DNA from: Ectocarpus siliculosus
Taxonomy: Eukaryota > Sar > Phaeophyceae > Ectocarpales > Ectocarpaceae
Reading direction: 5' to 3'
DNA: 64,000 nt
NCBI GenBank assembly: GCA_000310025.1
Contig: FN649735.1
Coordinates: forward strand, 4,116,556 to 4,180,555
Under the pieces are notes generated by a model, which did not search any database, was not told the origin of the DNA, and saw only the letters and a list, made by a program, of their open reading frames with translations. The translations under genes and the position numbers were made by a program. The number at the start of each line of letters is the position of its first letter. The first letter of the stretch is position 1. This document shows, in pieces, positions 19,860 through 36,560 of the stretch.

Positions 19860-20182
19860 TGTTATGGTATTTGGAGGTAGATATGTGATCGTGGTTGATC
19901 ATGGTTATTTGGCGCCGTTGGATATCAGGACGTGACGTCATGCTAGATCAGGGCTTTATGCCGAGACATGCGCCCTTCTGTTCAGTGTGTGCGTACAGAC
20001 GATCCCTGATGGTGTGTGGGTGGGATATTGTGAGGTGGCTTGGAAAGCGTTAATCAAGAGAAAGAGAACNNNNNNNNNNNNNNNNNNNNNNNNNNNNNNN
20101 NNNNNNNNNNNNNNNNNNNNNNNNNNNNNNNNNNNNNNNNNNNNNNNNNNNNNNNNNNNNNNNNCAAGAGAGTACCACACAG
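19860..20182 (+). mobile_element. Old solo LTR, left portion (split by the chromovirus)
   Basis: Starts TGTTATGGTATTTGG and follows the reverse complement of the 309-bp chromovirus LTR with scattered substitutions, so it is a plus-oriented copy of the same family. It contains the assembly gap. It stops at CCACACAG; the remaining 49 bp continue at 34093-34141. Outer target duplication CGAA is at 19856-19859 and 34142-34145. Confidence 0.85.
20070..20164. other. Assembly gap (95 N)
   Basis: Run of N inside the old LTR. Comparison with the intact LTR copies predicts that only about 36 bp are missing, so the gap length is probably overestimated. Confidence 0.95.
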
Positions 20183-20491
20183 TGTAATGGTATTTGACCC
20201 CTTCCTTCAGAATCAATCACCTTTGAGCTGTGTGGAACTCTCTTGTCCGACCACAGTAGCAGGTTGTTGTTGCTTTCCGTTGTTCTCTTTCTCTTGATTA
20301 ACGCTTTCCAAGCCAACTCACAATATCCCACGCACACACGATCATAGATCGCCTGTACGCACACACTGAACAGAAGGGCACATGTCTCGGCATAAAGCCC
20401 TGATCTAGCATGACGTCACGTCTTAGCATCCGACGGCGCCAAATAACCATGATCAACCACGATCACATGTCTACCTCCAAATACCATAACA
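20183..20491 (-). repeat. 3' LTR of the chromovirus
   Basis: 309 bp, identical by eye to 33784-34092. In element sense it starts TGTTATGG and ends CCATTACA, a TG...CA terminus pair with an inverted-repeat tip. The sequence on its internal side (20492-20512, read on the minus strand) has a short purine-rich stretch AGGGTGGG that may be the polypurine tract. Confidence 0.95.
20411..20418. promoter_or_regulatory. TGACGTCA (CRE/ATF-type) site in the LTR
   Basis: Perfect 8-bp palindrome recognised by bZIP factors in many eukaryotes. Also present at 34012-34019 (5' LTR) and 19933-19940 (old solo LTR), so it has survived in the diverged copy. A role in LTR transcription is inferred. Confidence 0.45.
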
Positions 20492-21677: not shown

Positions 21678-24600
21678 TCAGGCATCTATAGCCGTACCAC
21701 GCGACTCGTCTACATTGCGTAAGATACCTCGCATGAAGGGACTACTTCGGTGCAGCTGAAGGCACCAAGAACCACAAACAGCTCCCAAAGCTGTCGTGTA
21801 GCGCGAAGGGGCGAGGGTGATCTTGACAGGTCCAGGGTCATCCAGGAAGCGAACGACGAAGACGTTTGTAGTCGGAGTATGTCCGGAGATTTTCCCTAGC
21901 CACCATAGAGCGTCTTGAGCCTTGTACCAGAAGTGTGCGCCTACAGGCAGCACGGTGTTGCGAAAACGGCGGGCCCAAACATCGCGGGGAACATATTCGT
22001 ACCCGGGCGACGAGGACCGCTCGCCTTTGATGCGAGACAGTTCACGTTCCGCTGCGCCAATGCGCATGCGACGATACAGACGGTTAGTCTGCCGGTGTTG
22101 GTCGGGTGTACCAGCCCAATACAGAAGAATCTGTTTTCGGGAGTGTTGGAGGTCCATTTCTCGTTCCCACGAGGGCCGCAGAAGACCTTTCCAGTGGGTC
22201 TCGTACATGACTGCGATAACGCCGCCACGTCCTCGAACCGACTGGTGTCCCGTGATTTTCTCAACCTCGAGCCTGCGGACAGGCGCCGAAACATCGTCCG
22301 CGGTAACATGGTACGGCGGAGACTTCGTCGTGTAGTTGTTGAGAACATACTGCGTGAGGCCTGCAGGCAAGAACCGAGGCATGTCGTCACTATCGTGTGG
22401 GTTCGCAAACGGTTTGCAACGAGCGACAGAAACTCGGCGCTTGGCATCCACTCCGGGCATATCGGAGGGAAGATCCAAATACAGGAGCTTGTCAGCCACC
22501 GGACTGCCATCGGGAGCCTTGTTGCAAGGACCGACTGCGAGGATTTTAAAAGGACCTGTCCAATTCAAGGACAGCTTCTTTTTGAGTACCTGGGAGTCAG
22601 CGTCTGCGCGGGCCTTGGAAGTGAGTTTGGCACCTTGGCGGATGGTAGCCAAATGGTTGTAGACCCATACCCAACCACCGGTAGCGTAAACGGGTAGTTT
22701 ATGTAAGGCATCAGACAGTTTCGAGTTCCGTTTTTCCATACGGGAAACTGTGAGTGCGTGTTGTTCACGCAATAGCTCGTAGGAGCGCCGTTGCCGATCG
22801 GCGGCAAGGTTGCAATACTCGAGCTGATCGCGGGCAAGCGACTGGTGACCACGAGCGTAAATGTTGTCAAAAACGGTCAGTGGAAACCTGGGAAGGCGCG
22901 CCATATGCACCTCATTGGGCGCCAATCCTGTGGCAGCGCTAACGGAGTTGTTGTACGCGAATTCAACACGAGGGAGATGAATGTCCCAATCATCTTGTCG
23001 TTCGTTCACAACCATTGCCAGCATCTGGGCCATGGTGTGGTTCACGCGCTCCACTCCTCCGTTGCCGCTAGGGTGGTACGCGCTCGTCGTAAGTTTTCGG
23101 ACGCGTAGCAATTTTAGGATGGCAACCGACAGTTTGGAGCAAAACTGCAATCCATTGTCAGAAAGAATGCTGAGGGGGCATCCCCAAACAGGCATGTATT
23201 TATTGACAAGGACGTCAGCTGTACCTTCAGCTGTGAACTCGGCGTCAGTCACTGCGTACATATTGGCTCTCCGACTGAAACGGTCAGTGAATAGCAAAAT
23301 ATACGAGAAACCTCGCGGAGTTGTGGGAAGCGGACCAAAATAGTCGACGCAAATCGCGACCCCTGGTGCCGAAGGCAGAGGGATCGTGAGAATCGGCCAG
23401 CGAATAGTCTGGCGCGCAGTTTTGCGGGCCTGACATTTCAAACATCGCCGAATCCACCAACGAGTACTGATACTCATCCCAATCCACCAGTAAAACCTCT
23501 CAAGCAAGCTGAGCGTTCGAGTGGTACCAAGGTGGCAGAGGGCGTTGGCATGACAAGCTTGCATGACCCAAGGTCGCATTAACATGGGCACGTAAATACG
23601 AGTGGGTTCGTCATTCAACAGACGTGCAGCTCGTCCTCCGGGACGGTCAGAAGAGACCGGGGGCTTGGTATTCTTTCGTACCAAGAGGCAAAGGCCATCG
23701 TCAGTGACGAGGCGTCCTTTATCTGCAAGCTCTCGAATATCCTCCAACGAGGGTCTATGCCTGGAGTGATATGACACTCTGGCAAAGAAATCGACAGGTA
23801 GACTCTGAGGGCGTTTGAGGAGAATGTAGCGGATGGTGGCTTCACACACCGGCTCTTTCTGCTGTTCCCGCGCCCAATCGGCACGCGTGTAGCGTTCGAC
23901 GGACTCACGGAATTCTAACTCTGCAGGATTGAGGACCATGGAATCCACTGCGGGCGTTGCCTTACCAGCTGCAGCAGCCGGTTGTGACAAACCCAACAGA
24001 GGACCCGTAGGGGCGTCGGTAACCGTCTCCGGCGGCGCTATGGGCACCGTTGGGACAGGTTCGACAGCAGGCTCAGGCGTGGTGGCAGCTGGTGTCACTC
24101 GTGTTTGACGACGAGAAGCGCCTGCACGCGGAACGTGTGGGGGGATCGACAAATCAGGACCGAAACCGTAGTTTACATCGGGTTGAGGCTGACCCGCAGC
24201 AGCCGCGGTTCGGCGACGCGTACGAATAGAGATCAGTTCCGACGGATCAATACGATGCGGTTGCAACCGAGAGGTCGAAGGCGGCGGCAATGAGTCGGCG
24301 GCATCCAAACGATCAGAGTGGGAGCCGGCGTCGACAGTTGCGGTCGCAGGAGACACGACAGGGGGCAACCGAGAGTTATCGTCGGCGGTCTGTGTGCCGT
24401 GGACAGGGAGCGCAAATGCAGCTGTATCCGTGTGGGGTCGCGCAGACGGTCCGTAAACCGTGGCGGTGTCCCTATACAATGGTCTCATCGGAGACACAAC
24501 AGGAGAAGCTGAAGACCGGAGTTCCGGCACAGCGCCCTGTTTTTTCTGGGTTGCAGCGGAAATAACCTCAGGCACAGCAAATACGGAGTGGTCGGGGCAA

Positions 24601-25010
24601 GACAATGCACGATCATCCGCAAGGTGTCGCAAAGGTCCTCGCGCATTGACGCACGGAAAAACACGAGCGACGAATTCTCCTGCAGGAGCATCAAGGTCGT
24701 CAATCCTCATTCGAGGCCCGTGTTTGCGAAAATCCGCAAAATCATCGGAAGTGAGGGGTAGCCCACCCAAAGCGGCGTTCTCGCTCGGGAGTGCCAGCCC
24801 ACCCAAACCAACGCCAGGCGTGGTTTGTCCGGGTGGTGCGTGGCCTGTCGCTCGGATCAGATACACACCAACGTCTTCTGGGGACGTCAAACGACTGCTA
24901 CCGTTGATGTTGGCGGCAGTAGGCTCAATCGGCAGACGAGACAGCATGTCAGCGTTTCCGTTGGAGGCACCTCGTCGGTACTCCAACGTGTAGCTGTGCT
25001 TCAAGGAACT
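21678..25010 (-). CDS. Chromovirus Pol, C-terminal part: RNase H end, linker, integrase, chromodomain, possible Tudor-like domain
   Basis: Open to 25280, but residues encoded upstream of about 25010 are in the shadow of the RNase H frame. After the RNase H tail (YTLEYRRGASNGNADMLSRL) comes a Pro/Ala/Thr-rich linker of about 330 residues, then a zinc-binding region ending CLKCQARK near 23430. The integrase core follows with D in VDYFGPL (about 23345), D in SDNGLQF (about 23150) and E in NGGVERVNHTM (about 23050), a D-D-35-E pattern. A chromodomain-like segment (VEKITGHQ...THWKGLLRPSWERE) lies near 22290-22170, where chromoviral chromodomains bind modified histones and steer insertion. The last 130 residues include VGAHFWYKAQDALWWLGKI and VVRFLDDPGPVKI, like a small Tudor-type barrel. 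Catalytic residues all present; the frame is joined to the RT/RH frame only by a shift near 25010. Confidence 0.92.
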   Translation of the reverse strand, partial: SSLKHSYTLEYRRGASNGNADMLSRLPIEPTAANINGSSRLTSPEDVGVYLIRATGHAPPGQTTPGVGLGGLALPSENAALGGLPLTSDDFADFRKHGPRMRIDDLDAPAGEFVARVFPCVNARGPLRHLADDRALSCPDHSVFAVPEVISAATQKKQGAVPELRSSASPVVSPMRPLYRDTATVYGPSARPHTDTAAFALPVHGTQTADDNSRLPPVVSPATATVDAGSHSDRLDAADSLPPPSTSRLQPHRIDPSELISIRTRRRTAAAAGQPQPDVNYGFGPDLSIPPHVPRAGASRRQTRVTPAATTPEPAVEPVPTVPIAPPETVTDAPTGPLLGLSQPAAAAGKATPAVDSMVLNPAELEFRESVERYTRADWAREQQKEPVCEATIRYILLKRPQSLPVDFFARVSYHSRHRPSLEDIRELADKGRLVTDDGLCLLVRKNTKPPVSSDRPGGRAARLLNDEPTRIYVPMLMRPWVMQACHANALCHLGTTRTLSLLERFYWWIGMSISTRWWIRRCLKCQARKTARQTIRWPILTIPLPSAPGVAICVDYFGPLPTTPRGFSYILLFTDRFSRRANMYAVTDAEFTAEGTADVLVNKYMPVWGCPLSILSDNGLQFCSKLSVAILKLLRVRKLTTSAYHPSGNGGVERVNHTMAQMLAMVVNERQDDWDIHLPRVEFAYNNSVSAATGLAPNEVHMARLPRFPLTVFDNIYARGHQSLARDQLEYCNLAADRQRRSYELLREQHALTVSRMEKRNSKLSDALHKLPVYATGGWVWVYNHLATIRQGAKLTSKARADADSQVLKKKLSLNWTGPFKILAVGPCNKAPDGSPVADKLLYLDLPSDMPGVDAKRRVSVARCKPFANPHDSDDMPRFLPAGLTQYVLNNYTTKSPPYHVTADDVSAPVRRLEVEKITGHQSVRGRGGVIAVMYETHWKGLLRPSWEREMDLQHSRKQILLYWAGTPDQHRQTNRLYRRMRIGAAERELSRIKGERSSSPGYEYVPRDVWARRFRNTVLPVGAHFWYKAQDALWWLGKISGHTPTTNVFVVRFLDDPGPVKITLAPSRYTTALGAVCGSWCLQLHRSSPFMRGILRNVDESRGTAIDA

Positions 25011-25842
25011 CAATCCAGCGTTGGACGCGTGGGTTGTGCTCGCTGATTTTTGACAAACTTTCCAGCGCCTTATTGTCGGGATAGATGCGGAAGTGTGCGC
25101 CACGAAGGTATTCGCGGAGACGCTTGATCGCCCATACAACGGCTCCTGCTTCGAGATCGAGAGCGGTCCAGTTGCGTTCAGCGTCGAGCGTGGCTCTGCT
25201 GATGAAAACGATCGGCCGTACCGAGCCGTCTTTCTGCTCTTGCTCCAGCGCGGCGCCGAGACCGTCGGAGCTGGCGTCACAGCAAAGACGTAAAGGGCGT
25301 GTACCGTCCGCGATAGCGTCCCAATCAGGAAACACTAAAATGGGCGGTTTCGCGAGCTCAGTAGGCTGCGAACAGTTATTTCCATGTCGCTCGTGAAAGC
25401 GAAGGGAACACCTTTTTTTGAGCAAGTGCGTAATGGACTTCACACGCTTGGCCATGTCTCTGAGGAAACGTCGGTAGTAGCTCAGACCACCCATGAGTGA
25501 CCTGAGTTGCTTGACGGTCGTAGGCATGGGCATACCTGCCAGGGCGGCTACTTTACGGGCGTTAGGGAGGACACCTTTCGAAGATATGGTGTGCCCCAAG
25601 AAGTCAGCCTTGGTGGTACCGATGGTGGCCTTCGAGGGAGAAAGTTTGAGGTCGTACTTTCTCAACCGTTCGAAGAGCGTGCGCATATTACGGACATGCT
25701 GCAGTGGGCCTTCGTCAAAAACAACGACGTCATCGAGGTATGCCTCGACTCCATCGAGTCCTTTGATTACTTCGTTAATCACTTTTACAAAGTGGCCTGC
25801 GGATTGGCTAGCACCCATCGGCATGCGGAGCCATTCGAACAA
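24949..25842 (-). CDS. Chromovirus Pol, RT (second half) and RNase H
   Basis: Starts inside the reverse transcriptase (FEWLRMPMGASQSAGHF), with the catalytic YLDDVVVF box near 25740 and the downstream FLGHTISSKG motif, followed by an RNase H domain (LCCDASSDGLGAALEQ, then NWTALDLEAGAVVWAI and IYPDNKAL). The first RT half is in another frame (25808-26635); the two overlap at about 25905, where a one-base indel separates FSLFDFTG from LQITVHKDT. The downstream border with the integrase frame is another shift near 25010. Confidence 0.93.
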   Translation of the reverse strand: MFEWLRMPMGASQSAGHFVKVINEVIKGLDGVEAYLDDVVVFDEGPLQHVRNMRTLFERLRKYDLKLSPSKATIGTTKADFLGHTISSKGVLPNARKVAALAGMPMPTTVKQLRSLMGGLSYYRRFLRDMAKRVKSITHLLKKRCSLRFHERHGNNCSQPTELAKPPILVFPDWDAIADGTRPLRLCCDASSDGLGAALEQEQKDGSVRPIVFISRATLDAERNWTALDLEAGAVVWAIKRLREYLRGAHFRIYPDNKALESLSKISEHNPRVQRWIEFLEAQLHVGVPTRCLQRKR

Positions 25843-26635
25843 ACGAGTGGGGGTCGCAAAAGCCGTAAGGGGGATAGTGTCCTTGTGGACAGTGATCTGG
25901 AGAACCCGTGAAATCGAATAGCGAGAAAATCGAACCTCTGTTGAGTTTCGTTAGAATCTCGTCGACTCGGGGGATGGGAAGTTGACCAAAGCTGCTGATA
26001 TGGTTCAACTTTCTGTAGTTAACCGTGATGCGTATTCCACCAGACTTCTTGGGTATAACCACGATGGGGCTGGAATAAGGAGAGGTCGAGTGCTGAATTA
26101 GGCCAGCAGCTAGATACTGGTCCAAAATGGCATCGACTTGCTTTGCAACCAAAGGATTCATACGGTATGATTTGGACGTCACAGGGGGACAATCCGGAGG
26201 TACTTTGATCTCAAACGGCATCAGGGAACAGGACCCTAAATCCGTCGAGGATGTGGAAAACACGTCTTGGAAATCATGCAAAAGATCACCAAGTTCTGTG
26301 ATGACCTCTGGTGACCAACCAGGACCGTGTAAATCAAACTTTACCAACTTCAGGTGAGGCGGCAAGCGATTCCACAATGACTCAAAGCTAACTCTCTGAT
26401 CAGCGCTCAACCGCTCCATCACATGCTGTGGTGGCGGCGAGGGCGAAGTGTGAGCGGGGGCAGGGGCCGCAGGGGGTTGATTTCCCTGGGTCCGGCACAG
26501 GAGGATCTGTGGATCGTAGGTTGTGCACGAAGGGATCGTGGCAACGCACCTGCGGATCGACGGTCCTGTCCGCGTTATCCTCGGTAGACCCCAAAATAGG
26601 TCCAGGCACCGAACATGAAGTGTCAGCTTCGTCAC
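25808..26635 (-). CDS. Chromovirus Pol, RT N-terminal half
   Basis: Contains the thumb-proximal approach region (FEIKVPPDCPPVTSKSYRMN) and the first RT motifs (IVVIPKKSGGIRITVNYRKL, QLPIPRVDEIL, then FSLFDF). The frame becomes coding-like only downstream of about 26510 (from DPQILLCRTQG); the first part is in the shadow of the protease-region frame. It ends in an artefactual tail after the frame change at about 25905. Confidence 0.9.
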   Translation of the reverse strand: MTKLTLHVRCLDLFWGLPRITRTGPSIRRCVATIPSCTTYDPQILLCRTQGNQPPAAPAPAHTSPSPPPQHVMERLSADQRVSFESLWNRLPPHLKLVKFDLHGPGWSPEVITELGDLLHDFQDVFSTSSTDLGSCSLMPFEIKVPPDCPPVTSKSYRMNPLVAKQVDAILDQYLAAGLIQHSTSPYSSPIVVIPKKSGGIRITVNYRKLNHISSFGQLPIPRVDEILTKLNRGSIFSLFDFTGSPDHCPQGHYPPYGFCDPHSFVRMAPHADGC

Positions 26636-27255
26636 TAAACTGTTGTTCTAAATGCTCTACCGGGACGCGCATCAGCGGGGCGGCAGCAGTACCGAGCAAG
26701 TCTCCTGGCTCAAGTTCTGCAGCGCCCGCGAGCGGCACAAACTGACGCCCGTCGGAGACAAAGATCTCTTCGTTCGACGAAACATCAGGCAACATGTCGA
26801 CAAGGTATTGACCGGTCAGAGCCGGTGTACCGTTGGAACGCACCAAGTTGACTTCAATCATTTGGTGGTCGTCTGACAATGAAGTACCCGTTGGCCCTGC
26901 ATAACGGAGCTGGAATTGGTCCGCCGGGGCTGTGAAATCGGGCACATACGCGACCGCACCAGAATCATCCTGGTGGGCAAGCGTATATTCACCAAAAACG
27001 CGATTGTCCAGTGGCCTCGGAGGCAACATACGGTACGTGCGAGTGTTAAATCGCATGAAACTATCGCGTCCCAATAGGATGGGAAACTGCATGGTGTTTG
27101 CAGGGACGATGTGCGCCCAAACGGCAAGAGAAGCCGAAGGCGTATCACCGTGGAAAAATTGCACACTCAGACTCTTGCGTTGCAGGGTTAACCTCATGTA
27201 TTGTATTCCGGAGCTGAGCGTCGGACGAAACTTGTGGTGGAAGTGTCGGCGTCGG
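26400..27255 (-). CDS. Chromovirus protease remnant and PR-RT linker
   Basis: The open frame extends up to 27659, but only from about 27255 does it look coding (HKFRPTLSSGIQYMRLTL onward). It carries the second-half hallmark of retropepsins, FPILLGRDSF, near 27070. The active-site D-[ST]-G motif expected about 80 residues earlier is not in this frame; that place is occupied by the end of the NADAR domain in the neighbouring frame. A DSGA string does occur, but after ILLGRD, so it is not in the right order to be the catalytic motif. Pol-type processing is therefore doubtful in this copy. Confidence 0.6.
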
Positions 27256-28848
27256 CGCGTGCTCTCGGAGTAGGTCTCGAACAACCTGCAGGCTTTTGCC
27301 GAGCAGATTGGAGCCCCGCCATAAAGAGGGTTGGATTGCAGCAGGATCATCCGCGCGATGTCCAATGCCCCATATGGCATCGAATGGGCTAGCTTCGACG
27401 AGCATTTTGTCGCCGGTGCCCAAAAGATGTTGTCGCATAGCGGGATTTTGCGAAAATTTGTAGTAGGAGGCGACACGCACCACGTTTTCACGCTCGCGCT
27501 CCCAAACAGCTTCATCAAACCCTTTAACTTGGCGTCCGTAACGCTTATGTTTAATCGGGTCAGAAACACGCATAATCCGCCGCAACGTATCTTGGTCGCC
27601 AAAGAGACGAGCCTTGGCAGCCGCGAAGAATTGTTCTCCACAAGAGTATTCCACACCATCTACAGTAAAGACGGAGGGCGTCCATTGCGAGAAAAACGAC
27701 GGGGCTTGCCAGAACAACACCATGTCAGGTGTGCAGTACTCCTTGCTCGGATCAAACGCTGGTGGTGAACACCTGGCGTCGGTCGGAGGAGGAGGGTAGA
27801 TACGAATACCAGCTATAGCGGAGGAGGGGGATGTCTGTTTCCCCAAGTCCTCTACTCTTCCAACAGCGCAACCCGGTGGGGGTGTATAGTCTGTAGTGCT
27901 TTCGCTAGAATCCATCACGTTGGAGACATGACGGACCTCCCTTGACGAGGGTCGCGAGTTTTTCGCTGTTTGTTCAGCGAGGGGCGCAATCGGAGCGTCC
28001 TCCGAATACGGTGTTGTCAGCACCTCCGTGGTCGCGGTTGGGGACCGCTCAGTTTTGGTACTCCGCGAATCGCAAACCACGGGAAATCGACGCGTATTTC
28101 TTTCAACGCAATCGGTCATACTCGCTTCACCGTGCGGCGAGTGACTTTTATTACCGTCTCGAGTTCCATCGGTTGTATCGCCGCAGGCTGTCGATGACCC
28201 GTACGTAGTGGACATGTCCAAAGCATCGCTCGAGGTGGCTAAACCCGGCGACATTTCATGTATTGTCGACAACGTAGGTGTCTTAACGGTCTTCCACGAG
28301 GACGTCTGAGCGGACCTCTTGGGCATGCTCGACAATCCCGACCTTCCGTACCCGCACCTCAAACCGACCCTTGCATTCGTGTAGCCAACACGTAATGGTT
28401 CAGGCTGGTTTGCGGGCGGCAACGTGGTGTAATCGTGGGTTGTGCAAGCTGCTCGAGCTGTGTTAAAACTCGGGGAGCCGCCTTCAAGACAGGTCGCTCC
28501 TTGAGTTCCTAACCTTGGGGTATATTTACTGACGACAGCGCTGAAGCTGTCGCGTGTGCAAGCTGCTCGAGCTGTGTTAAAACTTGGGGAGCCGCCTTCA
28601 AGACAGGTCGCTCCTTGAGTTCCTAACCTTGGGGTATATGCATTGACGACAGCGCTGAAGCTGCCGTGATCGGGAGTGTGGGCTACACCATCTTCACCCG
28701 ATGAGGCCGAAGCACTACCGCTTGTAGCGGAAGTGTCGGTTGTAGGAACAGGAGTGGTACACTCGACCGTACCTACTATGCGCGCATCCTGCGACACATA
28801 TCTAGCTGCTCCCTGTTTTGCCATCGGCGGGTCGGGGAGTAACGACAA
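27145..28848 (-). CDS. ORF with YbiA/NADAR-type domain inside the retrotransposon
   Basis: 567 codons. Residues about 368-524 (27745-27275) match the YbiA/NADAR family from end to end: FFSQWTPSVFTVDG, EQFFAAAKARLFGD, GRQVKGFDEAVWERERENVV, KFSQNPAMRQHLLGTGDKML, VEASPFDAIWGIG, WRGSNLLGKSLQVVRDLL. This family is linked to NAD/ADP-ribose chemistry; members act as N-glycosidases, including removal of ADP-ribose from guanine. The N-terminal 360 residues are low-complexity Ser/Thr/Pro-rich and include a 38-residue tandem duplication (SFSAVVxxYTPRLGTQGATC) at about 28450-28670. The frame is the same as Gag's, separated from it by a single TGA (28864-28866) and five codons, with no ATG at its start, so it is probably made as a Gag readthrough product. 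The last 30 codons overlap the protease frame. Confidence 0.88.
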   Translation of the reverse strand: MSLLPDPPMAKQGAARYVSQDARIVGTVECTTPVPTTDTSATSGSASASSGEDGVAHTPDHGSFSAVVNAYTPRLGTQGATCLEGGSPSFNTARAACTRDSFSAVVSKYTPRLGTQGATCLEGGSPSFNTARAACTTHDYTTLPPANQPEPLRVGYTNARVGLRCGYGRSGLSSMPKRSAQTSSWKTVKTPTLSTIHEMSPGLATSSDALDMSTTYGSSTACGDTTDGTRDGNKSHSPHGEASMTDCVERNTRRFPVVCDSRSTKTERSPTATTEVLTTPYSEDAPIAPLAEQTAKNSRPSSREVRHVSNVMDSSESTTDYTPPPGCAVGRVEDLGKQTSPSSAIAGIRIYPPPPTDARCSPPAFDPSKEYCTPDMVLFWQAPSFFSQWTPSVFTVDGVEYSCGEQFFAAAKARLFGDQDTLRRIMRVSDPIKHKRYGRQVKGFDEAVWERERENVVRVASYYKFSQNPAMRQHLLGTGDKMLVEASPFDAIWGIGHRADDPAAIQPSLWRGSNLLGKSLQVVRDLLREHAPTPTLPPQVSSDAQLRNTIHEVNPATQESECAIFPR

Positions 28849-28863
28849 GCCGCCGTTGGGCTG

Positions 28864-30297
28864 TCAGTTACCAGCATTATACGTTACAGGAGTGCGGGCA
28901 TTTGGGTTGGAGTCTACGGGGAGTCGGCTGTTGATTCTTAACGCCGGCTGCGCGTGTGTGGCAGACACTGGAGCAGTACCTGCATGAGGCTGGTATGCTA
29001 CCAATGTGTGCTGTTGGGCTGGTGCACTAGATTGCATCAGGCCCTGTGGTGGCGGTTGATGCCACGTCTGAGTGTATTGTTGCGGGTTTGGAGCGTTACC
29101 AGCGTATTGAACTCTATGAGCTGGTCTGTGGGAACGGCGCCGGTTTTGTTGGCCATTCGAGTTGCGTGAGCCGTGTGTTGTGGCAGTCGCAGGCTTAGTC
29201 CTCGAGGACCGCAAGCGCTCTTGCCACAGGCGAAACGTGTCATCACCATCAGTCAGTGCACCTAAATCTGGGTTCAGGACACCACTAGCATTGGTGAAAG
29301 GCTGTTCACAGTGTTTGATGGAGTGGCCAGACCCGTGACAGTTTAAACAACGGCCAGCATTCGCGCTGAACGCTTGTGCTCGGTCAGCTCTAGTCCTAAG
29401 GAGTGGTGTCCAAAGGGGGGGGAGTTGACGTTTGAAACCCATGGAAACAACAGCATGCACTGTCTCCCAATGATCATCGGTGGCCAGCGGCCAAGCATCG
29501 TAGCTAACACAAAACACATCATGAATTGGCTCTGCCTTAACACGCATGACCGATTTGCCACGTGCTCCCTGGGAGCTCCAAGGCTGCTGCGATTGCGTCG
29601 TCGAACGTCCTTGAGAACGACTACCGCCTTGCGAATGCAACGATAATCCACTAAGCGAGAGCGCAGCATATTGCTCGCCATTCTCTGCCTTCACCTTAGA
29701 GGTCGTGAACTCATTCAGCACTCGCCACATCTCATCCAGACTACTGTAGGGTTCTGCAGCGGTACGCTTTGCACCCGGAAAACAGTCAGACATCATCACA
29801 GAAAACTGGTCGTTGATCTTATTCCTTGTGATCCCGACAATCCAAGTCTCGTTTAGGCTAAAAAGACTGGAATAGTGCGTGATGTTGTTCACGGCAGTAC
29901 GATACTGTCGCAAAAATTCTCCAAACGTAGTTCCGTTGGGAACACCGAACGCATTCAGCGTTGTCAAGGCGTCTCCACGGTCTTCATGCTTGAAGTGAGA
30001 CGCGATCAGACGAAGAAGGTGCTTGAAAGCTTCTCCTCCGTTCATACCGTCGTCCATACGCTGCTTCACCTGCACAAACGTACCATTGATAGAGCTGATA
30101 AGGTCACCAGTGGTTTGCTTGTTTAGGGATACGGCGCTAATGATGGCTTTCTTCAGCGGGTTTTCCCACCCGCGAACCCACGTATCGGATTTGTCAAGAG
30201 TCATGCAACGATAGGGATAGCACATTATGGCCCAGAACCTTCTGTTATTCAGATGAGTAACCAACCAGCGATTGTCGAATATCAACTCCGATTTCAA
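28864..30297 (-). CDS. Chromovirus Gag with CCHC zinc knuckle
   Basis: 477 codons. Residues about 30-200 form a helical capsid-like region (EAFKHLLRLIASHFKHEDRG, GEFLRQYRTAVNNITHYSS), typical of retrotransposon Gag. A zinc knuckle CLNCHGSGHSIKHC (CX2CX4HX4C) lies near residue 320 and would bind the RNA genome. The C-terminus is Gln/Pro-rich. The frame opens after a TGA at 30301-30303 with a non-ATG codon; the first in-frame ATG is at 30225. It ends with TGA followed by CAG, beyond which the NADAR ORF continues in the same frame. Confidence 0.88.
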   Translation of the reverse strand: MKSELIFDNRWLVTHLNNRRFWAIMCYPYRCMTLDKSDTWVRGWENPLKKAIISAVSLNKQTTGDLISSINGTFVQVKQRMDDGMNGGEAFKHLLRLIASHFKHEDRGDALTTLNAFGVPNGTTFGEFLRQYRTAVNNITHYSSLFSLNETWIVGITRNKINDQFSVMMSDCFPGAKRTAAEPYSSLDEMWRVLNEFTTSKVKAENGEQYAALSLSGLSLHSQGGSRSQGRSTTQSQQPWSSQGARGKSVMRVKAEPIHDVFCVSYDAWPLATDDHWETVHAVVSMGFKRQLPPLWTPLLRTRADRAQAFSANAGRCLNCHGSGHSIKHCEQPFTNASGVLNPDLGALTDGDDTFRLWQERLRSSRTKPATATTHGSRNSNGQQNRRRSHRPAHRVQYAGNAPNPQQYTQTWHQPPPQGLMQSSAPAQQHTLVAYQPHAGTAPVSATHAQPALRINSRLPVDSNPNARTPVTYNAGN

Positions 30298-30391: not shown

Positions 30392-32383
30392 CTAACGTTT
30401 GAAACTCAGAAGGGATTCGTGCACCCCTACCGTTGCATGAGTCTCAAAATCGATGAAAGGGTCAGCCTGTTGCAAGACATCTAAGGCTGCAGCCTTGATA
30501 GAATCTAACAACTGCGGCACTGCCTGTTTCAGGTTTGCCGGCCAAGGGATCGATGGTTGTATACGAATATCCCTAAACTTCGTCTTGATGTACTTCGCAC
30601 TGATCTCTCTCATTCGTGCAGCTTCTGCAAGCGCGTCAGCCTTGTCTATCTCTACTTGGCGAGCACGAGCAGTCGTTGACGACAACGGTTGGGCGTTATG
30701 GCCTACGAATGCACTGTTGCGTGACATCAATGAGTGGTCGCTGGCTGCGACATCACCCAACAACGGTACTTGCCTGTCATCTCGCGGGGCTGTCAGGGGT
30801 TGGTCCAGACGCTCTTCCAGTGGAAGATCGGTGGTCAGGTGCGGTTGGTTTGCGTCAAAGATCTCCTCCGGGGAGTGATCCTCGTGGGCTGGTGCCTCCG
30901 AGCCATCGCTGCTTCGGTGCCCGCGGCGGTGTCCGCGGCGGCGTGGGCTACAGCTCCTGCTATGACTCCGGCTACGGCGGCGGCCACGACTCGTGTCCTC
31001 CTTGCTGACGCTTTTAGTCGCCGAAGGCTTGCGTTCCACAGCGACCTCCTCTCGGCGGCCGTTGGACCCAGAGCGCTTCTTGCCACGTTTGCCTCGATTC
31101 GATCTCTTGGAGCTGCTGGCGGCCACGGAAGCCGACGCGTCACTTTCGCTAGCTGCGGAAGAGCGCGACCCTCGCGAACTTCGTTGACGGTGACCGTTAT
31201 TGTTGCCACGTCCACGGTTGCTGGAAGACCCTCGACCACTACCACGACCACGGCTGCCACGGCTGTGGGAGCTGCTGCTGTCGGTAGCGCGCTCTTTCTT
31301 CACCTTTCGGTGGGTGACGACACCGAAATCGCCGGTCTGCTTGGCGAATGCTGCAGAAGCACCAAACGTCGTTGGCAGAAGCGAAGGGGGAAGGTACCAG
31401 TTGACCTCCGTCGGGCGGTAGCCACCTGTAAGGTTAGCGTAACCTCCTCTGAGCCCGTGCAGAAGGCGCGTTACCGATTCGACTAACGGGGCGTCTACCG
31501 TAGGGGCATGAGCGACGTGATGCATGAATTCACGGAGAGTGACCGTAGGTCTCTCCGAGGTTTCTAACATCGTCGTCAGCACTGTAGCCGCCTTGGTGAC
31601 TTGTATCCTGCATGCTTCCGTGAAGGCCTGCTGGTGCACGTGCGCGAAGTTAGACACCGGAATGTCAAGGAACAATTCATCCCCCGTTCGGAGGCTGAGA
31701 TCCGGCGGTCCTTGCGCCATTTGGCTGTATGACGGTTGGGCCGGGGGCGGTACCACATAACCACCTCTAGCGATGGACAGTGGTGGATTCAGCAACAGCC
31801 CTTGCTGCTGATATGGCATACCGTACCCCGCAGGGCCGGCGTGCTGGGGCTCGGAACCAAGCTCATTCAAGCCGGTGAGCGCCATGTGCTGCGAACCAAG
31901 TCCTGAAGGACCGGTGAGCGGGTGCTCAGCACCAAACCCCTGTGGGTCGGTGGGAGAGTTTCGCGTCGAACCAAATCCCGTAGGATTGGTGAGCGAGGGG
32001 CTCTGCGAACCATACCCAGAAGGGTAAGTGCGAGCCTGCTTCGAACCATGCTCTTGCGAGCCGGTGAGCTGGGAGGGTTTCGCGTCGAACCAAATCTCCC
32101 GTAGGATCGGTGAGCGAGGGGCTCTGCGAACCATACCCCGAAGGGTAAGGGCGAGCCTGCTGCAAACCATGCTCATTAGAGCCGGTGAGCTGGGTGAAGG
32201 TCCAACAGACGAGATTGCATTACCATGGGGTACAACTGGGTGTAGTCGTTTTTCGGTTATTTCATGGGCAGGCACAGGACGCGTTGGAGCGGCCGTTGAC
32301 CGTGCTAGATCGAGAGCGTCAGATGGTGGTTTACCAGCTAGACGCCGTGACCGTCTAACAACAGGCATACTCGTAGTTTGCAC
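30392..32383 (-). CDS. Chromovirus ORF2, RGG/RS-rich protein
   Basis: 663 codons with no ATG at the start; the frame is open further upstream and overlaps the end of ORF1 in another frame, so it may be expressed by frameshifting from ORF1. Residues about 85-200 are a Gly/Pro-rich tandem repeat (YGSQSPSLTNPTGFGS type, unit about 20-40 residues). The middle (LFLDIPVSNFAHVHQQAFTEA) is globular-looking. Residues about 370-520 are basic with RGG and SR repeats (SRGRGSGRGSSSNRGRGNN; RSRSHSRSCSPRRRGHRRGH), typical of RNA-binding or splicing-speckle proteins. The C-terminus is a helical, moderately hydrophobic segment. No enzymatic domain recognised. Could be a matrix or nucleocapsid-like protein. 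Confidence 0.7.
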   Translation of the reverse strand: MQTTSMPVVRRSRRLAGKPPSDALDLARSTAAPTRPVPAHEITEKRLHPVVPHGNAISSVGPSPSSPALMSMVCSRLALTLRGMVRRAPRSPILREIWFDAKPSQLTGSQEHGSKQARTYPSGYGSQSPSLTNPTGFGSTRNSPTDPQGFGAEHPLTGPSGLGSQHMALTGLNELGSEPQHAGPAGYGMPYQQQGLLLNPPLSIARGGYVVPPPAQPSYSQMAQGPPDLSLRTGDELFLDIPVSNFAHVHQQAFTEACRIQVTKAATVLTTMLETSERPTVTLREFMHHVAHAPTVDAPLVESVTRLLHGLRGGYANLTGGYRPTEVNWYLPPSLLPTTFGASAAFAKQTGDFGVVTHRKVKKERATDSSSSHSRGSRGRGSGRGSSSNRGRGNNNGHRQRSSRGSRSSAASESDASASVAASSSKRSNRGKRGKKRSGSNGRREEVAVERKPSATKSVSKEDTSRGRRRSRSHSRSCSPRRRGHRRGHRSSDGSEAPAHEDHSPEEIFDANQPHLTTDLPLEERLDQPLTAPRDDRQVPLLGDVAASDHSLMSRNSAFVGHNAQPLSSTTARARQVEIDKADALAEAARMREISAKYIKTKFRDIRIQPSIPWPANLKQAVPQLLDSIKAAALDVLQQADPFIDFETHATVGVHESLLSFKR

Positions 32384-32436: not shown

Positions 32437-33666
32437 CTACGGCGGGTAAAGATAAGATACATAAGATACAGGTTCTACGTCTCTGCCTGCAATTGCATCG
32501 GTGCGGACAGGGGCAGAAGCATGGTTGCCAGTCGGAACATATTCACTGTCTGTGTATTCACGTGATTGTGGACGCGGGTACACAAGTGCAGCGTCACGTG
32601 CATCATGCGCGGCACCAGGCGGGGCAGGGTTGCTGGAAGCAAATGCGCCGCTGGTGGCTTGCGGTGTCTCACCATCAGCGGATCTCAGGGTATCCGACTG
32701 CTGCGAGGTCGCAGTGGTTCTCAAACTTTGATAGCGAGAGCCATCTCCATCCATCTCCGAAACATTTGTGGTGTTCTCGGAATGCGATAAAGAAGGGGTG
32801 TCGGCATGCAGCCGAGAGAACGTTTTGATAGTTTCTCGGGGGCTTGCGACAGCGAGACCAGGGGCAGAATCGCTCGAGGAGACCGCTCCGCTGGTGCGTT
32901 CTGACGTGCGTTCGACGGAGCTACTAACTCCTATCGAGTGCGTGTGTGAGGCATCGATCAAACTCGTAGAGTGAGAGCCAACACTATCCACATTCGGCAC
33001 ATATCCGCGCACGGAATGGGATGCAGCCGGGCTGGCGTCGGAATAATTCAAACTCTGAGGTTCAAACATGCCGACAGCGACAGCTGGGCTACCAGGGGCA
33101 GGAGTACTAGACTCGACCGCGCCACTGCGGGCGTCCGACACGCGCACAATGGAGCGGTGAGCTTCATTCGTGTGCGTGCGTGAGGCTTCAATCAAACTCG
33201 GAGAGCGAGAGCCTTCACCATCCAATTCCGGCACATTGCTGTGTTCGGATATGGATGCGGGGTGTGAGTGTGCGCGTTGAACCACCGAGCGCATCTGCAT
33301 TTCTGCAGGTGTCTCAAGGCGGTGTGCCACATCTGATGACCAGCGGCGAGCTGAATCACGAGAGGGCACAGATCTGGAGCGCGGCGCGCGACCAAGGCCT
33401 TCAGTGTGCGATCGTGCAACATCATCTTCCTGAGAGTCTACGTCTGCTAACGTGCGTCCGAACTGCGATCGCGATCGTGGCTGCTGCTGCTGCTGAAAAG
33501 TCCGACCGCGAACATGCAAGGAGGCACTCGGCGAATCCTCATCAACACGGAGCGAGCTACGCGACGCATTCGAACCATCATCATCAGGAGTGTTGTGCGG
33601 CGACAAAGGGACCGGGGTCGAGGTAGCAGAGTCGCTGCTACCTCGCGGCTCATCAGGAGCCGACAT
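32437..33666 (-). CDS. Chromovirus ORF1, Ser-rich repetitive protein
   Basis: 409 codons starting with a real ATG (33666-33664), 117 nt downstream of the 5' LTR, so it is the first ORF of the genomic RNA. Composition is rich in Ser, Thr, Ala and Arg and appears disordered. A degenerate unit of about 70 residues is repeated about three times (GEGSRSPSLIEASRTHT; SVGSHSTSLIDASHTHS; GDGSRYQSL), suggesting growth by internal duplication. No known domain. Large extra ORFs upstream of Gag are unusual for Ty3/gypsy elements. Confidence 0.7.
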   Translation of the reverse strand: MSAPDEPRGSSDSATSTPVPLSPHNTPDDDGSNASRSSLRVDEDSPSASLHVRGRTFQQQQQPRSRSQFGRTLADVDSQEDDVARSHTEGLGRAPRSRSVPSRDSARRWSSDVAHRLETPAEMQMRSVVQRAHSHPASISEHSNVPELDGEGSRSPSLIEASRTHTNEAHRSIVRVSDARSGAVESSTPAPGSPAVAVGMFEPQSLNYSDASPAASHSVRGYVPNVDSVGSHSTSLIDASHTHSIGVSSSVERTSERTSGAVSSSDSAPGLAVASPRETIKTFSRLHADTPSLSHSENTTNVSEMDGDGSRYQSLRTTATSQQSDTLRSADGETPQATSGAFASSNPAPPGAAHDARDAALVYPRPQSREYTDSEYVPTGNHASAPVRTDAIAGRDVEPVSYVSYLYPP

Positions 33667-33783: not shown

Positions 33784-34092
33784 TGTAATGGTATTTGACC
33801 CCTTCCTTCAGAATCAATCACCTTTGAGCTGTGTGGAACTCTCTTGTCCGACCACAGTAGCAGGTTGTTGTTGCTTTCCGTTGTTCTCTTTCTCTTGATT
33901 AACGCTTTCCAAGCCAACTCACAATATCCCACGCACACACGATCATAGATCGCCTGTACGCACACACTGAACAGAAGGGCACATGTCTCGGCATAAAGCC
34001 CTGATCTAGCATGACGTCACGTCTTAGCATCCGACGGCGCCAAATAACCATGATCAACCACGATCACATGTCTACCTCCAAATACCATAACA
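33784..34092 (-). repeat. 5' LTR of the chromovirus
   Basis: 309 bp, identical by eye to 20183-20491. Contains TGACGTCA at 34012-34019. Promoter function is expected but the transcription start cannot be placed. Confidence 0.95.
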
Positions 34093-34141
34093 ACAGCTCT
34101 AAGGTGATTGATTCTGAAGGAAGGGGTCAAATACCATTACA
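34093..34141 (+). mobile_element. Old solo LTR, right portion
   Basis: Starts with ACAGCTCTAAGG, repeating the ACAG that ends the left portion, and runs to CCATTACA. Together with 19860-20182 it reconstitutes one plus-oriented LTR, which is flanked by CGAA on both sides. Confidence 0.88.
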
Positions 34142-34795: not shown

Positions 34796-36560
34796 ATGGT
34801 GATAGCCACCGTCACCCTCGGTGGCAGGCTTGCCCACAACCGAGCAGTCCGGACCAAACCGAAACAGAAGCAGTTCGACCGACGGGAACTGCAGGCGGTG
34901 GCTGCGCGGTTCCTCCTCAACCTCGACCCACGGCAGGGCGAACGAGCGACCACCACCCCCGAGAAGGCGACCGAGTTCACCAATGCTCTCCTCGAAGCGG
35001 CAAGGGCGATACTACCCGAGGAACCGCGGACACGACGCACGCAAAAATGGTGTGAGACCCCTGAGACAAGAGCAGGGTTGTGGGAGGCCCTTGCCAGGCG
35101 GGGGGAAGCACGTCGAGCGATGAAGGGCAAGTTGAACGCAACATCGTGGAGGGCCCTCAAAGCAGCGTGTGAGGGAGTGGCCGCAGCAGTTAAAACGGGC
35201 GTATATGCCCACCTGGACAGATGTTTGACGGAACTCGAAGCGATCTACAAGGACCGAGATATGAACGCCCTCCACCAACACCTCAAGAGATCAGTGGGGC
35301 TCAGTGGGAGACAAGCGGGAGGACAGCAGTCCGTTGGGGACAAGAGTGGCGTGCTGCTCCGGAGAAAGAGCCCAGACATCATCGAACAAGTGACGCAGCG
35401 ACCGGCGACACGTCCCACCCGACGGTTGGGAGCGGTGCCAGACCTCGAGGAGATGGAACGGGCAACAAAACGACTACAGCACAGTTAGCTGGAAGGCACC
35501 CGGCAATGACTCCCTCCCTGCCGAGCTGCTCAAGATCGACGACGAAGAGGAACCCATCGTTCTGGAGCACCTCCATACCATCATCATTGAGGTGTGGAGC
35601 GGAGGAGAGATCCCCGCAAGTGTGGAAGGAGGTGTTGTACAAGAAGGGCGACTGGTCCAACTGCAACAACTTCAGGTGGATCTTGTTGTTACTTCACGTC
35701 AATAATAAGCAAAGTTCCCGTCAACATCATCACCAGCCGCCTAAGCGCCTATTGCGAAACCAACAGTATCCTCCCGGAGGAACAGTGCGGGTTCCGACCT
35801 GGGCGATCCACTATCGACATGCTGTTCGTCGTGCGCCGATTTCAGGAGCTGGGACGGAGAAGGAAAACACCACTATAAATGTGCTTCGTCGACCTGAAGA
35901 AGGCGTATGATTCGGTGGACCGAGAGCTGCTGTGGAAGGTACTGGCCAAGGCCGGGGCTCCAGAGGAGATGATCGCTGTCATCCGCCAATTTCACGACGG
36001 AATTCGGGCCCGGGTGCGCATGGACGACGGAGAGTTTCGGACTGGTTCTGGGTTACACAAGGCCTACGACAAGAGTGTGTGCTGTCCCCACTGCTGTTCA
36101 ACATCTTCTTCTCCGCGGTCATCGAGGTCGTTGCCATTCGATTCAGCGAGAATAATGCTATCCTGCAGAACCAAATGTACCTGGTGGAGGAGGCGGGAGC
36201 GGGGGCGGGGACACCACTTGGCCGAGTGCGGATGGCGGTATGGGGGAAGCTGTATGCCGATGACGCCAGCGTCGTATCGAGGTCTGCCGAAGGACTGGCG
36301 AGAATGAGGGCCGTCATAGTGGCCGTCATTGTGGAGGTGTTAGGGTAGTTCGATCTGACGTTATCGGAGAAGAAGACGGAGGCGCTCCTGATGGACCTCA
36401 GGCAGACAAAAACACCACCACCCGCCCCGCCGCCCCCGCTGATCATCGAGGCAACAGGGCAGAGGTACGCCCGGACGACTGAATTCCGTTACCTAGGGGG
36501 CTCGTCAACGAACATGGCGACCTCACCCGGGAGATCAACTACAGGAGCGGAGCAGCGTGG
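34796..36560 (+). pseudogene. LINE linker and reverse transcriptase, frameshifted
   Basis: 34796-35488 is an uninterrupted helical linker. RT pieces follow in changing frames: QVWKEVLYKKGDWSNCNNF (about 35620), ILPEEQCGFRPGRSTIDML (about 35770), [20 protein letters not shown] (35882), [19 protein letters not shown] (about 36055), the catalytic YADD in [12 protein letters not shown] (about 36250) and FRYLGG (about 36485). A stop and several frameshifts prevent a full product. Confidence 0.88.

Follow-up and report, generated by a model that had tools for sequence, protein, structure and literature searches.

Why should a retroelement keep an enzyme of ADP-ribose chemistry? The question is raised by a 64,000-nucleotide stretch of the brown alga Ectocarpus siliculosus (contig FN649735.1, positions 4,116,556 to 4,180,555 of the forward strand; hereafter the window), in which a Ty3/Gypsy element of 13.9 kb, running on the minus strand from window position 34092 to 20183, encodes a NADAR domain of the YbiA type. 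The presence of NADAR in Ectocarpus Gypsy elements is already in print: PMC12477816 (Genome Biol 2025) reports Gypsy families in which Pol has an N-terminal NADAR of the YbiA family, and which also carry chromodomains. The NADAR Gypsy lineage is thus already published, and an earlier, sequence-only reading of the window, which knew of no described chromovirus of this type, is overtaken by that paper, the sole one on NADAR in retroelements as judged by the titles and abstracts listed in our literature searches. The remaining question, why retroelements keep such an enzyme, is made testable by selection data, by a predicted readthrough stop, and by relatives in a Copia element, a Tpt1-bearing Gypsy element and other large proteins; the UGA-C junction, the selection data and the residue data are what we add to PMC12477816. 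Our preferred answer, with a probability of roughly 0.45, is that NADAR was acquired by a brown-algal Ty3/Gypsy lineage and kept in Pol, where it may remove ADP-ribose from nucleic acid of the element.

The window segment encodes a YbiA-type NADAR domain. A hidden Markov model search matched PF08719.17 to residues 379-528 of a 567-codon open reading frame (ORF; 27145-28848, minus strand), i.e. to window positions 27265..27714, over profile positions 2-163 of 163 and with 160.3 bits (E = 6.2e-47; gathering cut-off 35.1). The sequence-only reading had recognised a full-length NADAR/YbiA domain, and both that assignment and the motifs it quoted hold; its coordinates (27275-27745) were close, with Pfam giving 27265-27714. 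The structure prediction it had suggested agrees as well: a model computed with AlphaFold2 (AF2) from 27 sequences has a mean predicted local distance difference test (pLDDT) score of 94.3, and Foldseek matched it to the Phytophthora nicotianae NADAR (8bau; template modelling score, TM, 0.85) and to YbiA (2b3w; TM 0.75), the other 43 matches having E > 1. The P. nicotianae enzyme, which hydrolyses ADP-ribosyl-guanine (PMC11543638), shares the fold, 33% identity and most of the ADP-ribose pocket with the window domain.

Aligned to 8bau, the active-site residues of the window copy lie between 27370 and 27636 on the minus strand: E43 (27634-27636), K50 (27613-27615), K75 (27544-27546), R79 (27532-27534), W89 (27502-27504), R93 (27490-27492), E125 (27394-27396), D130 (27379-27381) and W133 (27370-27372). 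Residue roles follow PMC11543638, while the numbering of E125 and its assignment as the superfamily glutamate are ours. Among 49 aligned domain copies (from 48 of 150 places in the genome; one entry, L004, is the window copy itself), E43 is found in 47 and K50 in 48, both being present in the window copy, and E125, D130 and W133 are found in all 49. Ten residues (these nine and G78) are jointly retained in 45 of the 49 copies. The algal domains differ from the P. nicotianae enzyme at its Y84, which is replaced by F in 47 of 49, and at its D86, which varies.

The domain is by no means confined to this locus. In the 189-Mb genome (492 contigs), 150 of 230 NADAR candidates were scored (80 were left unscored), and all 150 exceeded the cut-off, giving at least 150 NADAR matches; the single copy that the sequence-only reading had named as grounds for abandoning its case is not what the genome holds. 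These matches fall into several families, with 40 to 100% identity to the window's domain, and family representatives are 53-77% identical to one another. Twenty copies, picked by hand with a preference for long open frames but including some low scorers, were taken at 8-8.5 kb, and 19 of them contain a reverse transcriptase (RT) matching that of copy L009 (the 20th, L025, has 3132 N).

NADAR is under purifying selection that is stronger than in the adjoining stretch and of the same order as in protease and RT. In three families the ratio of nonsynonymous to synonymous polymorphism (pN/pS) of NADAR was 0.127, 0.211 and 0.493; in the same order it was 0.716, 0.707 and 0.750 for the adjacent spacer, used as internal control (L022, L024 and L026 cover only part of it), while the protease region gave 0.247, 0.284 and 0.576, and RT plus RNase H 0.289, 0.120 and 0.309. 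NADAR is thus below the protease region in all three families and below RT plus RNase H in one of three. The calculation used 13 copies, the second family including L021 (∼77% identical to the rest) and the third including L026. Pairwise ratios of nonsynonymous to synonymous substitution rates (dN/dS), which the sequence-only reading had proposed to measure across copies, also show purifying selection: the median is 0.136 at dS 0.05-0.2 (47 pairs) and 0.124 at dS > 2 (17 pairs), with 457 pairs saturated in dS. They were computed from 35 distinct sequences of the 49, after dropping six identical ones and eight more with stops, frame damage, lost site residues or insufficient length, or duplicating the window copy.

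How would such a domain be expressed? Gag and Pol form one reading frame, split by a single TGA. In the window, the C-terminal part of Gag is a 477-codon ORF (28864..30297, minus strand) with a CX2CX4HX4C zinc knuckle and no Pfam match above chance; it ends in an in-frame TGA followed by C (28864..28866), the predicted readthrough stop at the Gag/Pol boundary. UGA followed by C is a leaky context for termination. We examined 29 rows; a zinc knuckle in the upstream frame is seen in nine of them (L009, L010, L011, L012, L015, L017, L023, L025 and the window), all with TGA followed by C at this place. As these nine represent four sequence families (three copies in the window's family and four in that of L010), they do not count as independent events. 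In the remaining rows a different stop closes the frame ahead of NADAR, or the locus is not long enough. NADAR starts 283-436 codons into the Pol frame of the nine copies, after a low-complexity spacer (27715..28863 in the window, minus strand) that is weakly constrained (pN/pS 0.71-0.75 in three families). NADAR is the first folded domain of Pol, and does not lie between Gag and Pol as the sequence-only reading had it. Given the in-frame UGA-C after Gag, NADAR is probably a low-dose particle enzyme made by readthrough.

Put together, the preferred reading runs as follows. A brown-algal Ty3/Gypsy lineage would have acquired NADAR, its likeliest source being a gene of bacterial type, and retained it as the first folded domain of Pol. 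Readthrough of UGA-C would yield a low dose of enzyme, packaged with protease, RT and integrase. In the particle the domain might, and here we are less sure, remove ADP-ribose, most likely from guanine, on element RNA or new cDNA, and so undo a host- or stress-induced modification that would otherwise stand in the way of reverse transcription or integration. Removal of ADP-ribose from guanine has been reported for NADARs of several branches, namely those of P. nicotianae and Escherichia coli C7 and a myxobacterial YbiA (PMC11543638, PMC11125620). Because the active-site residues are kept and this activity is reported for other NADARs, reversal of host ADP-ribosylation by the element's NADAR is plausible.

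Several observations weigh against this reading. The C7 NADAR of E. coli hydrolyses guanine-ADP-ribose without need of the superfamily glutamate (PMC11543638), so the retention of this residue in the algal domains proves little. Specificity differs among close NADARs, since K-12 YbiA and the C7 NADAR failed to relieve YarT (PMC11125620), and NADARs also act on riboflavin intermediates and have been proposed to act on small ADP-ribose derivatives (PMC9503650). As for a host enzyme that would place the mark, an exon-by-exon search of the whole genome, which can miss genes, returned no match for DarT (PF14487) or for Tpt1/KptA, and only four exon-sized matches for PARP (26-33 bits, two with a stop). 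Readthrough and packaging are deduced from sequence only. Site residues are lost in four of the 49 domains (L019, L020, L026 and L028) and a stop codon lies within three (L001, L027 and L028). The median dN/dS is 0.437 in the 66 pairs with dS < 0.05, and NADAR is weakly constrained in the window's own family (pN/pS 0.493), where most changes are recent and presumably arose after insertion. The window copy moreover lacks ∼140 codons shortly after NADAR, including the protease motif LLDSG (junction at 27170..27172, minus strand).

The missing stretch is present in all eight other family members examined (L003, L005, L006, L007, L009, L017, L024 and L026), and the window Pol, compared with the open Pol frame of L009 (2175 codons), is broken into pieces across several frames. 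As the LTRs (long terminal repeats) of the window copy are identical, it either lost the stretch shortly after it had inserted, or was mobilised, already without it, by proteins of other copies; an assembly error is also a possible source of the gap. The closest known relatives are the NADAR-chromodomain Gypsy elements of Ectocarpus sp. 7 (Gypsy-12_Ec32 and its kin; PMC12477816), to which the window element is likened by their description; it differs from them in lacking the protease segment.

The distribution of NADAR in other elements bears on its role. A search with the region of Pol containing NADAR returned six public proteins: four Gypsy proteins (P0121-P0124), P0125 and P0126. P0124, from Ectocarpus sp. 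CCAP 1310/34, is 95% identical to copy L012 over 572 Pol residues. In P0125 Pfam finds NADAR with a cytosine methylase, and in P0126 NADAR with RVT_1. A search with P0126 returned nine proteins including itself, among them P0133, P0134, P0129-P0132 and two from Haliotis. P0133 (2335 aa) is a Gypsy polyprotein with protease, RT, RNase H, NADAR, Tpt1/KptA (PF01885, 105.7 bits) and integrase, in this order. P0134 (2178 aa) is a Copia polyprotein with NADAR near its N-terminus, integrase, RVT_2 and a PTM/DIR17-like Tudor domain. P0129-P0132 are large NADAR proteins, mutually related over long stretches, in which Pfam found no RT: P0130 and P0131 match SET and, weakly, phage integrase (20.4 and 23.4 bits against a cut-off of 27.1), P0131 also has a nucleoside kinase and NUDIX, and P0129 and P0132 show NADAR alone. 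By eye, P0125 and P0126 end in a tyrosine recombinase. P0125, P0126, P0130 and P0131 look like tyrosine-recombinase elements. In the two Haliotis proteins, P0127 (4719 aa) and P0128 (4240 aa), BLAST matches of P0125 mark NADAR-like stretches at eight and seven places, respectively.

No publication on a Copia element with NADAR, or on a retroelement in which NADAR neighbours Tpt1, came up in our literature searches, and a term search of the main text of two papers on retrotransposons, on extra domains (PMC6338049) and on methyltransferases (PMC5890265), did not find NADAR. NADARs are also borne by Tx1 elements of Crassostrea gigas (PMC12477816), which are non-LTR long interspersed nuclear elements (LINEs) and carry the domain in a different frame, ORF1. 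Those of eukaryotic positive-strand RNA viruses likewise sit in a polyprotein with a polymerase, but without reverse transcription (PMC9503650); both comparisons are by description. Around viral NADAR genes, none of 138 loci had a match at E 1e-3 to any of six queries, which covered RT, integrase and Tpt1; the loci come from 80 of 472 relatives, and the result says little on the rest.

We placed these domains on a tree of 71 rows, into which 35 of 52 viral representatives and fourteen of the 120 listed matches of the NADAR search were entered. The algal Gypsy domains form one group (99/92) with P0125, a long branch whose place among the algal rows is unsure. This group stands next to P0005 and to Corallococcus P0007, the step to P0007 having a support of only 96/67. 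P0126 and P0129-P0132 form a second group (100/100), and P0133 and P0134 are placed outside both, P0133 with low support. Coded as a character, presence in a retroelement shifts at least four times on the tree, with the short proteins P0001, P0004 and P0006, which show no RT but fall with the algal Gypsy domains, counted as retroelement rows and P0005 not. A single clade of algal Gypsy and P0133 is rejected by the approximately unbiased (AU) test (p 0.025), whereas one of algal Gypsy with P0126 and P0129-P0132 is not rejected (p 0.20); both groups were chosen after viewing the tree, and P0125 is in neither. A separate acquisition of NADAR by P0133 is supported by the AU test and by the position of the domain.

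P0007 is the nearest named bacterial row (55% identity; Streptomyces P0008 has 58%), which recalls the myxobacterial YbiA antitoxins of YarT-YbiA pairs (PMC11125620), members of the same YbiA subfamily, though P0007 is not shown to be a YarT partner. The myxobacterial proteins are stand-alone antitoxins beside their toxin, whereas the algal domain belongs to a polyprotein, and no linked transferase was found for it. A DarT-NADAR toxin-antitoxin pair was also considered, and rejected: the exon-by-exon search, which can miss genes, gave no DarT match beside NADAR or elsewhere in the genome.

The main rival is RNA repair. Here NADAR would clear ADP-ribose derivatives or RNA ends that arise as element RNA is cut and repaired, and so leave an intact template. 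In P0133 NADAR is followed by Tpt1/KptA, an NAD-dependent RNA 2′-phosphotransferase; NADAR and KptA together have been proposed in viral RNA repair (PMC9503650), and for the Ectocarpus elements a part in processing RNA intermediates is suggested in PMC12477816. The Pol of the algal Gypsy lineage, however, has no Tpt1 match, nor has its genome at the exon level, and the NADAR of P0133 falls outside the algal Gypsy clade (AU p 0.025 for groups named post hoc). We consider this explanation unlikely, yet not remote. Destruction of a small host alarm or toxin derived from NAD or ADP-ribose, as proposed for viral NADARs, chiefly those of phages (PMC9503650), strikes us as quite improbable, since Pol expression limited by readthrough would better suit an enzyme of the particle.

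A binding role without catalysis, in which the fold is kept for RNA or for ADP-ribosylated chromatin, would go with the putative, weakly matched chromodomain that is also found at the integrase end. E43, K50, E125 and D130, however, hardly vary among families with representatives 53-77% identical to one another, which seems more than binding alone would require, and we find this reading very doubtful. There is finally the chance passenger, in which one copy would have picked up a host gene on a single occasion; the weak constraint in the window's own family might speak for it. Next to nothing is left of this reading in view of the 150 scored matches, the several families (some as low as 40% in identity to the domain of the window) and the purifying selection; single-copy capture of a host gene is ruled out by copy number and selection together.

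The remaining features of the window element support its assignment as an LTR retroelement of Ty3/Gypsy order; all but the target-site duplication are placed on the minus strand. The sequence-only reading had described a bounded LTR element, and rightly so: the 5′ LTR (33784..34092) and the 3′ LTR (20183..20491), both of 309 bp with TG...CA ends, are identical at 309 of 309 bases, and a CTGT target-site duplication can be read off the sequence on either side (34093..34096, left copy; 20179..20182, right copy). Upstream of the Gag part, a 663-codon ORF (30392..32383) has no Pfam match; in L009 the stretch of its residues 498-651 is continuous with Gag in a single open frame, so Gag of the window copy is cut by a frame change. 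The RT region (25585..26056), mapped from RVT_1 of L009 and matched in part by Pfam (RVT_1), is likewise split by a frame change. It is followed by RNase H (25000..25302; PF17917, E = 4.7e-31), the zinc-binding H2C2 domain of integrase (23418..23591; PF17921, E = 2.4e-13) and the integrase core, rve (23070..23372; PF00665, E = 1.5e-9). The order protease, RT, RNase H, integrase is present in L009, the last three by Pfam and the protease by its LLDSG motif at residue 652, no protease family being matched there.

After the integrase lies a putative chromodomain (22116..22268; PF00385, E = 0.0013, 19.0 bits), which is under the Pfam cut-off of 25.1. Shorter pieces of the integrase ORF gave 16.9 and 19.0 bits, and the whole 1200-codon ORF had no Chromo match in Pfam at E 0.1. 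The model of the integrase C-terminus (pLDDT 34.8) is unusable for recognising a chromodomain, and a PDB sequence search with it gave one match at E 1. According to PMC12477816, moreover, the chromodomain Gypsy lineages of Ectocarpus are phylogenetically not chromoviruses. The label 'chromovirus', used in the sequence-only reading, is not supported and should be dropped.

Some further observations concern the surroundings of these features. A stretch after the putative chromodomain (21681-22100) is conserved with P0123 and P0124. It has no Pfam match, and by eye it looks Tudor-like. Between the 5′ LTR and Gag, a 409-codon ORF (32437-33666) has no tblastn match in copy L187, where the next ORF starts ∼100 bp after the LTR, which suggests an insertion or a variant leader. 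Beyond a 95-N gap adjoining the 3′ LTR, an inverted piece of the same LTR was seen by eye (20000-20164) and may be another copy or an assembly join. On the other side, the open frames at 34796-36348, adjoining the element, resemble by eye a LINE-type RT (motif in ORF 35879-36307).

What does this mean for retroelements in general? NADAR looks to have been taken up more than once, which may serve to counter ADP-ribosylation of the elements' nucleic acid. It occupies different places in the polyproteins: algal Gypsy has it N-terminally in Pol, P0133 has it after RNase H and before integrase, next to Tpt1/KptA, and P0134 has it near the N-terminus. That such uptake by unrelated reverse-transcribing elements reflects a eukaryotic defence in which the RNA or cDNA of retroelements is tagged with ADP-ribose, and which NADAR counters, is a speculative reading that we hold to be unlikely at present. 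Should NADAR indeed clear ADP-ribose from the nucleic acid of these elements, it would point to an undescribed, NAD-based eukaryotic defence against reverse transcription.
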